Below, in pieces: positions 1 through 6,113 of a stretch of 64,000 bases of DNA. Every line of letters begins with the position of its first letter. Positions within the stretch are counted from its first letter, which is position 1. The position numbers were made by a program, and so were the translations under genes. Under the pieces are notes generated by a model. That model worked only from the letters and a program-made list of their open reading frames with translations, had not been told where the DNA came from and did not search any database. Source of the stretch: Halopiger djelfimassiliensis (GTDB lineage: Archaea > Halobacteriota > Halobacteria > Halobacteriales > Natrialbaceae). The stretch spans positions 124,001 through 188,000 of the forward strand of contig NZ_HG315688.1 in assembly GCF_000455365.1 (NCBI RefSeq), read 5' to 3'.

Positions 1-346
1 CGCCGGTCGTGCCGACCTCGACGGTGGAGGTACCGTCGGTGTTGGCGACGTTGACGTTCACGTTCGCATCACCGGCGATGCCGGTCGCGTTCTGCTGTGC
101 CTCCTGATTGGCGGCCTGCACGCCGACGTTAGTCTGATCGACCTCCTGTGTCTGTGGGACCGTTGCGGTCGAGATCTGCTCGACGGTCGGAGCCACTTCC
201 TCCTCCTCTTCGATAACCACCGGTTCGACCGGTTCGGCCTGTTCTGGCTGATCGTGTGCCGCTGCCGTTCCGGCAAGCCCCATAAACGCGAGGGTGCCGA
301 TCATCGCTACCGTCAGTGTGATTGCGAAGGTGCGTTTCGTAGACAT
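1..346 (-). CDS. Secreted Q/N-containing protein, partial at the left window edge
   Basis: The reading frame starts at an ATG whose first base is 346 and stays open to base 1, so only the first 115 residues are visible. A signal peptide is clear: MSTKRT, a hydrophobic stretch of about 20 residues, then an AAAH-type cleavage region. An acidic linker follows (a run of five Glu near residue 52), then a Gln/Asn-rich segment with VDQTNVGVQ and NVNVNVAN. The VDQxNVxxQ motif resembles the repeat of the divergent neighbour at 974..2551, which suggests a paralogous or partner surface protein. Function is unknown; export by Sec is inferred. Confidence 0.75.
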   Translation of the reverse strand, partial: MSTKRTFAITLTVAMIGTLAFMGLAGTAAAHDQPEQAEPVEPVVIEEEEEVAPTVEQISTATVPQTQEVDQTNVGVQAANQEAQQNATGIAGDANVNVNVANTDGTSTVEVGTTG

Positions 347-925
347 TGTTGTGTTCGTAAGGCACGCATCACGAGCGGGGCGGCGTTACCCGTTCCGTAA
401 CGAACCGCGTGCGTTCGACCGCGTGACCGCTCGTTGCAGTAGGGATCGCCAACTCCCCGATGTGACGCGTTGCCCGGTCGATGCTCCCACCGTGTGCTAC
501 TTGAATCCGAACAACGGTTTCGGGCCGCATACTCGCGTTAGCGGACCTGAAACCGAGAATCAGGTCGGTGAGGAAAACGTTCCACTGACCGTTCCAGTCG
601 GCGTCGGCATGGCCGGACCGGGGCCTCGATCGCCGTGCGGCGTCCGGTGATCGGCACGCCCCGTTCGAGCCGCCACGTAACAGTCGACTTCGGTCACTGA
701 AACAATCTTTCGAGGCGATACGATCGGCTCCCGTCGCGGTACTGCCGCTGGCTCGAGCGCGTCCGAGGCGCTCACGAGGTCACACGCGCCACCTACTCGC
801 ACGGGGCCGAGCCGAAGGAGCCGGTTTCTAGCGGAAAGCGACTCGCTTCGCTCGAGTAGGCGCTTGCATCGGCAGATCAACTGACAGATAACAAAGTCCG
901 TCATCGGGATAGGAAGGTTTGCGCC
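347..925. other. Divergent intergenic region without a supported gene
   Basis: This 579-base stretch separates the two divergent secreted-protein genes and should hold both promoters. Open frames exist on both strands but their translations are Arg/Pro-rich and low in the Asp/Glu typical of haloarchaeal proteins, so I do not call them. A weak AT-rich element (agataacaaa, about 886-895) is a possible TATA box for the rightward gene. Confidence 0.5.
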
Positions 926-973
926 GTGGAGATGCAGAAAGAAAAGACTCTCACGGCTCGAGTCACACGAATC

Positions 974-2551
974 ATGACTACCACGACGACGATACGTTCA
1001 CAGTGTACGACGGTTCTGATGGCGTGTATAGTCGCCCTATCGATGATCGTTGCCGGCGCGGCAGTGCCGGCGGCTGCAGGGAGCGACGAACCGAACTCGG
1101 AGGCCGTCCACGCGCTCGAAGACGGTGAAGAACTGTACCTCGTTTTCGGTGCTGATCTCGGTGAGATGTCGCTCGAGGAGTACATCGAAGCGCACGCGTC
1201 GGGCGAGCAGGTTTCGGACGCCGAGGTCTCCCAGTACCAGGACGTCGACCAGGTCAACATCAACCAGCAGGCGAACGCGACCTCCATTTCGATCGACGGC
1301 GGTGAAGCGACTGCGATCCAGGAGGCGTCGCAACTGAACAGTAACGATCAGTTCGCCGACGCAGCGGCCGAGAACATCCAGGGACAGACGACCCAGTTCG
1401 AGGACGTCGGAAACGTCTACATCATTCTCGGCGACAGCGACGGAAAGCAGTTCGACGGCTGGGGGATCGCCGACAAGAAAGGCGACAAAACGAACGTCGA
1501 CACGGATCAGACGGCCGAAGCCGTCGTCACGCAGGCACAGGCGGTCGGGCAGTTGAACTACAACGAACAGAACGTCGCGTTCGCGCTTGCAGCGAACGGA
1601 AGCGAGGCGACCGCGGTACAGCAATCCTATCAGACAAACCAGAACCTGCAACAGGGGGTCGCTAACGCGACGAACGTCTACGTTGGCGACGGGAAATTTG
1701 CCGACAAGACCGGCGACCACCAGAAGTCGGGCAGCGGTCCCAGCGCGGGACAGGCGACCGTCGCCGAGGTGACACAGGGCCAGGAAAGCGACCAGATGAA
1801 CGTCAACGAACAGGACGGCTCCGTCGCTATCTCCGTCGGCGAGGGAAGTACCGCGACGGCCATCCAGTTCACCGAACAGGCAAACCTCAACGAACAGCTC
1901 GGCAACGCCAGCGCCACGAACGTCTTCACCTCGATGCCCGGCATGAACGTCGCAACCGCCGGAACGGACGGCGGCAACACGGTCGTCGACAGCCAGAAGA
2001 CCCTCGAGAAACTCGAGGGCAAGGAAGGCGACTTCCACCGGAAAGGCGTCGGCGACATCCAGTCGGCGACTTCGGAAGTGACCCAGAGCCAGGAGATCGA
2101 GCAGATGAACGTCAATCTGCAGAGCACTGCGATGGCGATCGCAACCAACGAAAGCACTGCGACCGCAGTGCAACTGGCCCACCAGCAAAACATCAACGCA
2201 CAGATCGGCCACGCCGATGCGTTGAACGTCTACGCGGGGCCCGGCTACAAGCACGATAGCGTTATCCAGTCCGAAACCACGAGCGTGACCCTCGAAGGTG
2301 GCGACGTGGACGAACTCAACGGGATCGCGTACGACTACGACACGACACAGACCAACGACGTCGAACAGCAAGCGAGTGCACAGATCGAGATGGTCCAGTT
2401 CGTTACACAGGAGAACGTCAACGAACAGCAGGCTGCCGTCGCGGTCGCGGAGGACGGCGGAAGCGCCGACTCCGCACAGGTGACGATGCAGGAGAACCAG
2501 AACCTCCAGTTCGGTTCCGTCGCCGCGACGAACGTCTGGGCCGCGGCGTAA
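974..2551 (+). CDS. Secreted QxNxNxQ-repeat protein (predicted beta-solenoid/amyloid-like surface protein)
   Basis: The protein has an N-terminal Sec signal (MTTTTTIRSQ, a hydrophobic core, then AGAAVPAAAG) and an acidic secreted body. From the ATG at 974 it has 525 residues; in-frame starts GTG 926 and ATG 932 would add up to 16. I favour 974 because it gives a typical signal peptide. The body holds ten QxNxNxQ motifs as five pairs; the two motifs of a pair start 27 residues apart (28 once), and between them lies an AxAI...ATAxQ core. Pairs are separated by more variable acidic or lysine-containing spacers. This resembles curlin-type or other beta-solenoid repeats, but I do not recognise a named family. 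It may polymerise or serve as matrix protein next to a polysaccharide locus; that role is inference. It is divergent from the related gene at 1..346. Confidence 0.85.
   Translation: MTTTTTIRSQCTTVLMACIVALSMIVAGAAVPAAAGSDEPNSEAVHALEDGEELYLVFGADLGEMSLEEYIEAHASGEQVSDAEVSQYQDVDQVNINQQANATSISIDGGEATAIQEASQLNSNDQFADAAAENIQGQTTQFEDVGNVYIILGDSDGKQFDGWGIADKKGDKTNVDTDQTAEAVVTQAQAVGQLNYNEQNVAFALAANGSEATAVQQSYQTNQNLQQGVANATNVYVGDGKFADKTGDHQKSGSGPSAGQATVAEVTQGQESDQMNVNEQDGSVAISVGEGSTATAIQFTEQANLNEQLGNASATNVFTSMPGMNVATAGTDGGNTVVDSQKTLEKLEGKEGDFHRKGVGDIQSATSEVTQSQEIEQMNVNLQSTAMAIATNESTATAVQLAHQQNINAQIGHADALNVYAGPGYKHDSVIQSETTSVTLEGGDVDELNGIAYDYDTTQTNDVEQQASAQIEMVQFVTQENVNEQQAAVAVAEDGGSADSAQVTMQENQNLQFGSVAATNVWAAA
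1226..2539 (+). repeat. Five diverged protein-level repeats within the secreted gene
   Basis: Units of about 50 codons lie at roughly 1226-1375, 1523-1675, 1766-1921, 2075-2233 and 2384-2539. Each reads approximately VTQxQxxxQxNxNxQ, an AxAI core, ATAxQxxxQxNxNxQ, then ATNV. The units are conserved in protein rather than in DNA, which points to old duplications kept by selection. Spacers differ in length and sequence. Confidence 0.8.
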
Positions 2552-3150: not shown

Positions 3151-4947
3151 GTGTGTGGACTGATCGGCTACGTCGGACGGCGGGCCGACCGAAACGTCCA
3201 GGAGGTGCTACTGGACGGGCTGTCGAGCCTCGAGTACCGTGGCTACGACTCAGCGGGCATGGCCGTTTCGAACTCGTCGCTGGCCGTCTACAAGCGGGAA
3301 GGGGACCTCTCCGCACTCGAAGGCGCGCTACCGGACGAGCCACTCGACGGGGTCGCGGGGATCGGCCACACCCGGTGGAGCACGCACGGCAGCCCGTCGG
3401 ACGCGAACGCACATCCACACACCGACTGCACCGGCCGCGTCGCGGTCGCTCACAACGGCATCATCGACAACTACCGGGCGCTGCGGGAATCACTCGAGAC
3501 GGACGGCCACGAGTTCGACAGCGAAACCGACACCGAGGTCATCCCCCACCTGATCGAATCGGCCCTCGAGCGGGGCGACGACGCCGAAACGGCGTTTCGA
3601 TGGGCGATAGACAGACTCGAGGGGAGTTACGCGGTTGCGGCGACCTACGCCGGCCACGAGACGGTCTACGCCGCGCGAAACCGCTCGCCGCTCGTCGTCG
3701 GCATCGACGACGACGGGTACTTCCTCGCCAGCGACGTGCCGGCGTTTCTCGAGTACACGGACGCCGTCACGTATCTCGACGACGGACACGTCGCGTCGAT
3801 ACGGCCGTCCGGCGTCGAGATCACGGACGAACGGGGTGCCTGCGTCGACGTCTCGGTCGAAACCGTCGAGTGGGAGCCGGAAGACGCGGGCAAAAGCGGC
3901 TACGAGCATTACACGCTCAAAGAGATCCACGAACAGCCCCGGGCGATCCGCAACTGTCTCCGCGGTCGGCCGCAGGAACTGACCGGGGACGTCTCGATCG
4001 ACGCGCTCGAGGACGTCGAACGGCCGGACCGGATCCAGTTCGTGGCCTGTGGAACGTCGTATCACGCGTCACTGTACGGCGCGCGGTTGTTCCGGGAGCG
4101 ATCGGTGCCGGCAACGGCGTTTCTTGCCAGCGAGTACGACGCCGACGCGGTTCCCGTCGACGACGGGACGCTGGTCGTCGGGGTGACCCAGAGCGGCGAG
4201 ACTGCCGATACCCTCCGTGCCCTCCGGGACGCGAACAGGGCCGGCGCGACGACGCTTGCGGTGACGAACGTCGTCGGGAGTTCCGCGCCACGGGAGACCG
4301 ACCACGCGATGTACATCCGGGCCGGACCGGAGATCGGCGTCGCAGCGACCAAGACCTTCGTCACACAGCAGGTCGCGTTAGCGATGCTCTCGAGCGGGCT
4401 GACGGGTGAACGGTCCCGGGAAGTCGTCGCCGCACTCAGGGACTTGCCCGACCGGATCCAGTCGGTGCTGGACGAATCACGCGCGCGAACGATCGCATCC
4501 GAGTACGCAGCTGCCGACGCGTATTTCGTCATCGGTCGCGGGTACAGCGCACCGGTGGCGCTCGAGGGCGCGCTCAAGATGAAAGAGATCACCTACAAAC
4601 ACGCCGAGGGGTTCCCCGCCGGCGAGTTGAAACACGGACCGCTGGCGCTCGTGACCGAACGGACGCCGGTCTTCGCCGTGATCTCCCGCGACTCGAACGC
4701 GGAGACGATGCTCGGAAACGTAAACGAAGTCGCGTCTCGAGGGGCACCGGTGATCGCCGTCACGGACGCAAGCGAGGCGGTCGCAGCCGACGTCGATCAC
4801 GTGCTCCGGATCCCGGAAACCCACCGTCGGTTCACCCCGATCCTCGCGAACGTCCAGCTCCAGCTGGTGTCCTACTGGATGGCGAACCAGCTCGATCGGT
4901 CGATCGACAAACCACGAAACCTCGCGAAAAGCGTCACCGTCGAGTAG
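3151..4947 (+). CDS. glmS: Glutamine--fructose-6-phosphate aminotransferase (isomerizing)
   Basis: GlmS converts fructose-6-phosphate and glutamine to glucosamine-6-phosphate, the entry to UDP-GlcNAc synthesis, in the cytosol. The GTG start is fixed because residue 2 is the catalytic Cys of the class II amidotransferase domain (MCGLIGYVGRR), which is exposed after Met removal. The amidotransferase domain covers about residues 2-220, followed by two SIS sugar-isomerase domains: CGTSYHAS near residue 300 and the conserved KHGPLALV near 494. The C-terminus ends in the usual KPRNLAKSVTVE. At 598 residues the length is normal. It heads the glycan locus and would supply amino sugar to the UDP-GlcNAc-using genes downstream. 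Confidence 0.97.
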   Translation: MCGLIGYVGRRADRNVQEVLLDGLSSLEYRGYDSAGMAVSNSSLAVYKREGDLSALEGALPDEPLDGVAGIGHTRWSTHGSPSDANAHPHTDCTGRVAVAHNGIIDNYRALRESLETDGHEFDSETDTEVIPHLIESALERGDDAETAFRWAIDRLEGSYAVAATYAGHETVYAARNRSPLVVGIDDDGYFLASDVPAFLEYTDAVTYLDDGHVASIRPSGVEITDERGACVDVSVETVEWEPEDAGKSGYEHYTLKEIHEQPRAIRNCLRGRPQELTGDVSIDALEDVERPDRIQFVACGTSYHASLYGARLFRERSVPATAFLASEYDADAVPVDDGTLVVGVTQSGETADTLRALRDANRAGATTLAVTNVVGSSAPRETDHAMYIRAGPEIGVAATKTFVTQQVALAMLSSGLTGERSREVVAALRDLPDRIQSVLDESRARTIASEYAAADAYFVIGRGYSAPVALEGALKMKEITYKHAEGFPAGELKHGPLALVTERTPVFAVISRDSNAETMLGNVNEVASRGAPVIAVTDASEAVAADVDHVLRIPETHRRFTPILANVQLQLVSYWMANQLDRSIDKPRNLAKSVTVE

Positions 4948-5264: not shown

Positions 5265-6113
5265 ATGCCACTGATCGACGAAAACGGGAACCTCTTCGGC
5301 CTCGTCAACGTCATCGACGCGCTGGTGGTCGTGCTGGGTCTTGCCGTGCTCGTCGCGGGGATCGCGGTCGTCTCGAGCGTCGGCGACGACCCGGAGACCG
5401 GCGAAACACAGGCGGCTCCCGGCGAGGCGGAGACGAGGTTCGTGACGCTCGACCTCGGCACGCAATACGACTACGTGCTCGATCGACTCGAAGAAGGCGA
5501 CACCGCGGCGATCAGCGGGACCGGCGAGACCGTTACGGTGACCGACGTCTACGTCAGCCCTTCGGCACCGGACCACGCGAACGGCTCCGTGTCACGGGCG
5601 ACGATCCGCGCGGAAGTCGACGGCCTAGCCCGCGAGACGGCGGACCGGGACGTCTTTCAGGTCGCCGGCGATCCCCTCCTGCTGGGTCACGAACTCGCGC
5701 TGGATCTGGGAACCTACGCCATGACTGGAACGATAACGGCGATCGACACCGAAGAGCCGACGCTGTCGATCAACGAAACCACCACCGACGCCGAGATCGA
5801 ACTCGAGAACGTCCCGCCCGCCGTCGCGGCGGCGCTCGAGGAGAACATGTCCGAGACTGCCCGCGGGGAGACGATCGCGACGATCACCGGGATCGAACGG
5901 GACCCCGCGAGCGTCGTCCTCGAGAGCGAGGGTGGCGACATCTACGAACGCGAACACCCGCGAAACGAGGACGTGACGTTGACGGTCGAGTTGCGGACGG
6001 TCGAAACCGATACCGGCCTCGAGTTCCGCGGGGAGCGCCTCGAAGTCGGCACGTCCGTCGCGCTCGATTTCGGGACGGTCACCGTCGACGGCGACGTTAC
6101 CTCGATCGACTAG
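5265..6113 (+). CDS. DUF4330-type membrane-anchored protein
   Basis: The protein has 282 residues from the ATG at 5265 (MPLIDENGNLFG). One N-terminal membrane segment (about residues 15-37, VNVIDALVVVLGLAVLVAG) anchors an outward-facing domain rich in beta-strand-forming, acidic sequence. The MPLIDENGNLFGxxNxxD start and overall layout match haloarchaeal DUF4330 proteins, which often lie beside exopolysaccharide genes. Function is unknown. It is followed after four bases by the next gene and forms a likely operon with 6118..6765 and the glycosyltransferase at 6762. Confidence 0.8.
   Translation: MPLIDENGNLFGLVNVIDALVVVLGLAVLVAGIAVVSSVGDDPETGETQAAPGEAETRFVTLDLGTQYDYVLDRLEEGDTAAISGTGETVTVTDVYVSPSAPDHANGSVSRATIRAEVDGLARETADRDVFQVAGDPLLLGHELALDLGTYAMTGTITAIDTEEPTLSINETTTDAEIELENVPPAVAAALEENMSETARGETIATITGIERDPASVVLESEGGDIYEREHPRNEDVTLTVELRTVETDTGLEFRGERLEVGTSVALDFGTVTVDGDVTSID

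Follow-up and report, generated by a model that had tools for sequence, protein, structure and literature searches.

Near the start of the window, that is, the whole 64,000-nucleotide stretch of Halopiger djelfimassiliensis DNA that was analysed (contig NZ_HG315688.1, positions 124,001 to 188,000), lies a gene for a predicted secreted protein built of five repeated units, with two small genes directly upstream and divergent from it (Table 1). The larger product is rich in Q, A, T, E and D and carries ten QxNxNxQ motifs, which begin at residues 109, 136, 209, 236, 290, 318, 393, 420, 495 and 522 when numbered from the GTG at 926; the positions and letters that the initial annotation gave for them are all exact in the translation of 926-2551. 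Ten motifs is far above chance, the mean in 20,000 shuffles (residue 61 onward) being 0.04 and the maximum 2. The motifs fall into pairs separated, in order, by 27, 27, 28, 27 and 27 residues, so that the earlier description of "five exact pairs" is right as to spacing, while the sequences of the pairs differ. The units are separated by four linkers of 26-47 amino acids, of which 23-29% are charged.

The open reading frame and residue numbers based on the GTG at 926 also hold, but translation probably begins at the in-frame ATG at 974 (residue 17), a choice favoured by the many orthologs that start at this point and by the signal peptide directly after it. That signal peptide, recognised by inspection, bears out the earlier proposal of secretion and suggests export through the Sec pathway. 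The conserved segment that follows is no confidently folded cap in the AlphaFold model. Ortholog alignment shows residues F158, F176, G178 and W179 to be invariant in the conserved N-terminal and first-linker segments. The N-terminal ELYLVFGADLG..LEEYI (1103-1201) also resembles the first linker, NVYIILGDSDG..FDGWGI (1391-1500), and the two are possibly copies of a duplicated short module.

Table 1. Features of the locus (window positions, except where a contig is named)
Feature	Coordinates	Strand	Basis and remarks
Small single-unit secreted partner A	2..346	-	N-terminal 115 of 146 aa inside the window; remainder upstream
Second small partner, about 140 aa	G000:C5:123068-123478		62% identical to partner A
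Divergent intergenic/leader region	347..973	.	DNA blocks about 459-541 and 885-931 adjoin each gene
Five-unit secreted protein	926..2551	+	Translation; 541 aa from GTG 926, 525 aa from ATG 974
Sec-type signal peptide	974..1078	+	Residues 17-51, ...TTVLMACIVALSMIVAGAAVPAAA; sequence inspection; start conserved in ortholog alignment
Conserved N-terminal segment ELYLVFGADLG..LEEYIEAHA	1103..1201	+	Ortholog alignment; AlphaFold confidence low
Unit 1	1193..1393	+	Unit HMM match; AlphaFold strands 45-64+67-72/76-100 (mature chain); two QxNxNxQ
Unit 2	1496..1693	+	Unit HMM; AlphaFold strands 144-172/176-202 (mature chain)
Unit 3	1742..1936	+	Unit HMM; AlphaFold strands 225-253/258-284; 28-residue spacing, one extra turn residue
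Unit 4	2054..2242	+	Unit HMM; AlphaFold strands 328-355/360-386 (mature chain)
Unit 5	2348..2545	+	Unit HMM; AlphaFold strands 431-457/462-488; C-terminus as uncapped edge
glmS	3151-4947		Polysaccharide locus, with DUF4330 protein and glycosyltransferases

Partner A, which the initial annotation overlooked, carries the same motif type as the five-unit protein. Cut by the edge of the window, its gene is complete on the contig (G000:C5:123909-124346), and each of the two small products consists of one segment resembling the first strand of a unit and one resembling the second. Their linkage to the five-unit gene extends well beyond this genome: in a pattern scan of flanking DNA, small secreted partners occur in 38 of 43 loci of the main group of relatives (L052-L093, L107), always upstream on the opposite strand and as many as four to a locus; of the five loci lacking one, three have little upstream sequence. 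The same scan found partners in 3 of 18 loci of a more distant five-unit group. The small proteins are too divergent for their absence to be called reliably in genomes without the large gene. In many relatives the two half-units of the small protein are reversed, with the strand-2-like segment first, as if circularly permuted (L056:7074-7520, L064:6955, L079:7075). In one genome, that of Haladaptatus salinisoli (G346; C1:62121-63906 and contigs C4 and C7), the unit is matched 25 times; several of these matches fall singly in adjacent open frames about 125 amino acids long, which amounts to a local multiplication of small subunits. In one genome (L035:2941-8016) a cluster of one-unit secreted proteins lies apart from the large gene, and one of them contains a long KHADDKKDDDR repeat.

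The intergenic DNA blocks beside both divergent genes are conserved in an alignment of nine relatives, and in many relatives cdc48, larC, small gene(s) and large gene follow one another in this order. Downstream, the polysaccharide locus noted in the initial annotation does adjoin the gene in this window, but most relatives do not share this adjacency. Its use as general functional evidence was accordingly given up: cdc48, larC and the small gene persist in relatives, whereas the glycosyltransferases mostly do not, and the conserved neighbours are the small one-unit genes, larC and cdc48 instead. A DUF4330 gene (5265-6113; PF14221, E 1e-30) sits between glmS and the glycosyltransferase cluster, and in Natrialba, too, such a gene lies downstream of the large one.

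Anatomy of the unit and its predicted fold

Superposition of 215 aligned units, all with the 27-residue spacing and with position 0 at the Q that opens the first motif, reveals a strict alternation of residues along the unit. In-phase positions are 54% Q or N, 33% A, G, S or T, 12% hydrophobic and 1% charged; out-of-phase positions are 8% Q or N, 27% charged and 39% aliphatic or aromatic. In the first arm the in-phase residues read A-12, A-10, V-8, Q-6, Q-4, V-2, Q0, N2, N4, Q6 and, after a slip of two residues, A9, A11 and A13. In the second they are A19, A21, Q23, S25, Q27, N29, N31, Q33, G35, A37, A39 and N41. Between the arms, positions 14-18 form the turn, around D-G-S/G-E, and close to it only small residues are found in phase. 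Residues of the two arms mirror one another about this turn (A13-A19, A11-A21, Q6-Q27, N4-N29, N2-N31 and Q0-Q33), provided that a bulge of one residue is allowed for the pairs from Q6-Q27 to Q0-Q33. From this mirrored pattern it follows that the unit reads strand, turn, strand, with QNNQ opposite QNNQ.

An AlphaFold2 model of the mature five-unit protein, made from an alignment of 52 sequences (the protein itself and 51 relatives from fetched loci), gives much the same picture. Two strands of about 26 residues and a turn are modelled for each unit, with pLDDT of about 80-98 in these blocks; 194 residues reach pLDDT of 90 or above, and the stretches of high confidence map onto the units. In unit 1 a break at 65-66 and a turn at 73-75 match the slip and the turn derived independently from the alternation. 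Most linker residues have pLDDT below 50 and about a third of the chain is disordered; that pTM is 0.63 despite this indicates that the units pack together. A strand-turn-strand stack is therefore, as far as a model can tell, very probably the fold of the five-unit protein. The stacked beta-strand units with Gln/Asn ladders that had been proposed from the motifs alone thus find agreement among the AlphaFold strands, the alternation and the mirror symmetry, the predicted structure showing repeated Gln/Asn-lined strands. For an isolated small partner (12 sequences), AlphaFold returned pLDDT of 56 and pTM of 0.20, and because of this low confidence the model was not used for its fold.

Among 350,542 PDB chains, the top two Foldseek matches to the predicted structure were CsgA of Pontibacter (8c50) and FapC of Pseudomonas (9nqd), with non-significant E-values of 0.025 and 0.23 and TM of about 0.05. 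They are taken as a hint only, because they are not significant and junk matches to viral structures reach similar E-values; the 42 matches in the viral structure library, all with low TM-scores, were set aside as meaningless.

Distribution and searches for known families

By whole-genome search, 99 of the 125 Natrialbaceae genomes have a match, spread over 26 of 29 genera, among them Natrialba, Natrinema, Halobiforma, Halopiger, Natronorubrum, Natronococcus and Haloterrigena; more distant relatives occur in Haladaptatus, Halogranum, Halalkalicoccus and Halocatena. A search with the unit in 394 genomes of the archaeon's phylum matched only members of the Natrialbaceae, and scans of IMG/VR found no viral relatives. 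Each of the 62 full-length proteins scored contains five units, no more and no fewer, and among orthologs the in-phase residues are invariant at 35-70% overall identity.

The protein is conserved and previously unnamed. Pfam and NCBIfam scans gave no family match to it, a Pfam scan of 52 relatives gave nothing beyond PGF-CTERM tails, and sequence and profile searches of all PDB chains brought up no related family; a weak PDB sequence match to PhoQ over a Q/N stretch was judged to be chance. Existing annotation of the relatives goes no further than "hypothetical protein" or "PGF-CTERM sorting domain-containing protein". The emptiness of Pfam, NCBIfam and the PDB fits the earlier remark that no described haloarchaeal fibre with this pattern was known. 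The profile searches pointed to no characterised non-fibrous family and the predicted structure does have its Gln/Asn-lined strands, so that neither of the two outcomes which the initial annotation named as refuting its proposal came about. In the open-access literature searched, no haloarchaeal protein of the five-unit type was found described.

In some orthologs (L043, L047 and L049) a long acidic tail leads up to a C-terminal PGF-CTERM sorting signal. Because of this signal, such orthologs are probably anchored to the cell; the protein of H. djelfimassiliensis is probably released freely. In the second, more distant five-unit group (L094-L111, L113; e.g., L103:7830-9560), many members carry a Tat-type signal, RRGYLKG, and not a Sec signal; several are on plasmids, and most are without an adjacent small partner.

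A candidate fibre subunit and its alternatives

The reading favoured here, by analogy with known systems and at somewhat better than even odds, is a secreted, open-ended beta-arch solenoid similar to curli and FapC that polymerises into extracellular fibres, perhaps with the small partners. The five-unit protein would be a structural subunit that acts as CsgA does in curli and FapC in Pseudomonas. Each unit would be a beta-arch of about 54 residues in which QNNQ of one arm packs on QNNQ of the other, the inner face being Ala-Ala-Val-Gln-Gln-Val-Gln-Asn-Asn-Gln / Ala-Ala-Ala in arm 1 and Ala-Ala-Gln-Ser-Gln-Asn-Asn-Gln-Gly-Ala-Ala-Asn in arm 2. The five units would stack in register into one solenoid through ladders of Gln/Asn side chains and backbone, and the charged linkers would loop outward, giving the solenoid a solvated fringe that suits a high-salt environment. 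Both ends appear open, since the chain terminates with unit 5 and its N-terminal segment is modelled with too little confidence to count as a folded cap, and molecules and small partners could therefore add end to end. Open-ended beta-solenoids polymerise and capped ones do not (PMC10192328). The free ends would then join and so build a fibre outside the cell, in the biofilm matrix or on the cell surface, with the one-unit partners taking part as nucleator, co-subunit or end piece. We infer this partner role, and a function of the system in biofilms. As in functional amyloids, the subunit is secreted (judged from the signal peptide by inspection), conserved and repeat-bearing, and has genetic partners. 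The PGF-CTERM surface anchors of some orthologs count in favour of this reading as well.

Polymerisation itself is rated as reasonably likely, and the principal competitor is a monomeric beta-solenoid, a rigid five-unit rod on the cell, sometimes anchored by PGF-CTERM, whose linkers or LYLVFGAD segment bind a ligand, a polysaccharide or another cell. Most known beta-solenoids do not polymerise (PMC10192328); the fixed number of units in 62 of 62 proteins fits a finite rod; the conserved N-terminal and first-linker segments with their four invariant residues suggest a specific binding surface; and some orthologs do have PGF-CTERM. CsgA of E. coli, however, is likewise fixed at five repeats and yet polymerises, neither end of the AlphaFold model is confidently capped, and divergent one-unit partners make most sense if units add to each other, so that the rod is given perhaps one chance in four in our estimation.

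Considerably less probable is an arrangement of the units as antiparallel beta-hairpins in one wide sheet, whose Gln/Asn face would zip to the sheet of another molecule or small partner and build a sheath, film or S-layer-like lattice, not a fibre. The palindromic QxNxNxQ motifs and arms mirrored about a short turn fit a hairpin as well as a beta-arch, and archaeal amyloid sheaths exist (PMC10593813, PMC6242892); but a single sheet exposes the uncharged in-phase face of both arms, which must be buried, and the nearest, though weak, Foldseek matches are parallel beta-arch amyloids. That the protein is a mostly disordered, compositionally biased surface protein of a halophile, its repeats arising from duplication and salt adaptation with no fold, is very improbable: the residue composition, the four charged linkers and the annotation of relatives only as hypothetical or PGF-CTERM proteins speak for it, whereas the invariance of in-phase residues among orthologs, the strictness of the alternation and the confidently predicted strands speak against it.

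By sequence the protein is not a member of the curlin family, though it would work like curlin and FapC if the predicted structure is right. The curlin kernel, N-x-Psi-x-Psi-x-Q-x-G-x-x (PMC10192328), occurs 0 times in the 62 five-unit proteins, and PF07012 has no match among 52 relatives at E<=1; membership is excluded on both counts. The likeness to CsgA (PF07012; 8c50) is one of plan: both are secreted repeat proteins, with five repeats in the E. coli protein, and, if the prediction holds, their strand-arc-strand units turn alternate residues inward, have Gln/Asn ladders and show a polar or charged face to the outside; CsgA, too, has a partner gene, CsgB, nearby. The CsgA unit has about 22 residues, with 4 inward per arm, whereas the archaeal unit has about 54, with 12-13 inward per arm; the archaeal protein also differs in its long charged linkers and its host. 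Haloarchaeal cells are without an outer membrane, and a CsgG is therefore not expected.

FapC, which provides the nearest working model for the mechanism, is built of imperfect repeats, one layer each, with a conserved internal Asn/Gln network and disordered linkers of variable length (PMC12392863). The archaeal protein likewise places Asn/Gln-rich imperfect units between disordered linkers of 26-47 amino acids, but FapC (9nqd) has three repeats as against five and a Greek-key layer as against a simple strand-turn-strand. No membership in FapC by sequence was found, as the PDB profile search, which included 9nqd, gave only the chance PhoQ match. The HET-s prion domain and other two-winding beta-solenoid amyloids have two pseudo-repeats per unit and Asn ladders; unlike the archaeal protein, HET-s has shorter windings in a triangular solenoid and is a fungal signalling protein. 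The sheath proteins of Methanospirillum and Methanothrix are extracellular, archaeal and amyloid-like (PMC10593813, PMC6242892), but differ in forming rings, and no sequence relation to them was found in PDB or Pfam searches.

The five-unit protein is a candidate amyloid of archaeal biofilms and looks like a counterpart of bacterial curli-type fibres. Dyes have hinted at amyloid in haloarchaeal biofilms since 2014, with staining reported for Haloferax volcanii and the protein unconfirmed (PMC4180959). Haloferax is absent from the distribution found here, and its staining may therefore stem from another protein. The family offers widespread, genetically adjacent candidates in culturable Natrialbaceae that are open to deletion, purification and imaging. 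If the fibre reading is true, it would add, after curlin and FapC, another sequence-unrelated repeat solution to the design of a Gln/Asn-lined stacked beta-arch, one that works in near-saturated salt with charged linkers outside the core, and would be relevant for biomaterials and the evolution of amyloid subunits.

A related unit in Thermincola

Like the small-partner linkage, a bacterial occurrence of the unit is newly found here. A contig of a Thermincola ferriacetica MAG (L114:7992-10304, 37% GC) carries three tandem genes with two units each, several of which score like archaeal units with the unit HMM (up to 72 bits). These genes are without signal peptides and differ in their C-terminal parts; a unit search of 399 genomes of the Thermincola phylum gave no further bacterial case. 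The units may have come by ancient transfer or by convergence. The broadest reading, of a two-component archaeal functional amyloid of five-unit and divergent one-unit subunits, with its own wide, polar beta-arch (an arm of about 26 residues) and a unit common to a clostridial spore-surface system, would make this an amyloid module in both prokaryotic domains, and is offered as speculative and rather unlikely. The neighbours of the Thermincola genes are two YheC/D ATP-grasp genes, of a family known from endospore coats, and a gene for a PGA_cap protein; if the relationship is real, it points to use at the spore surface, possibly as a spore-surface fibre.
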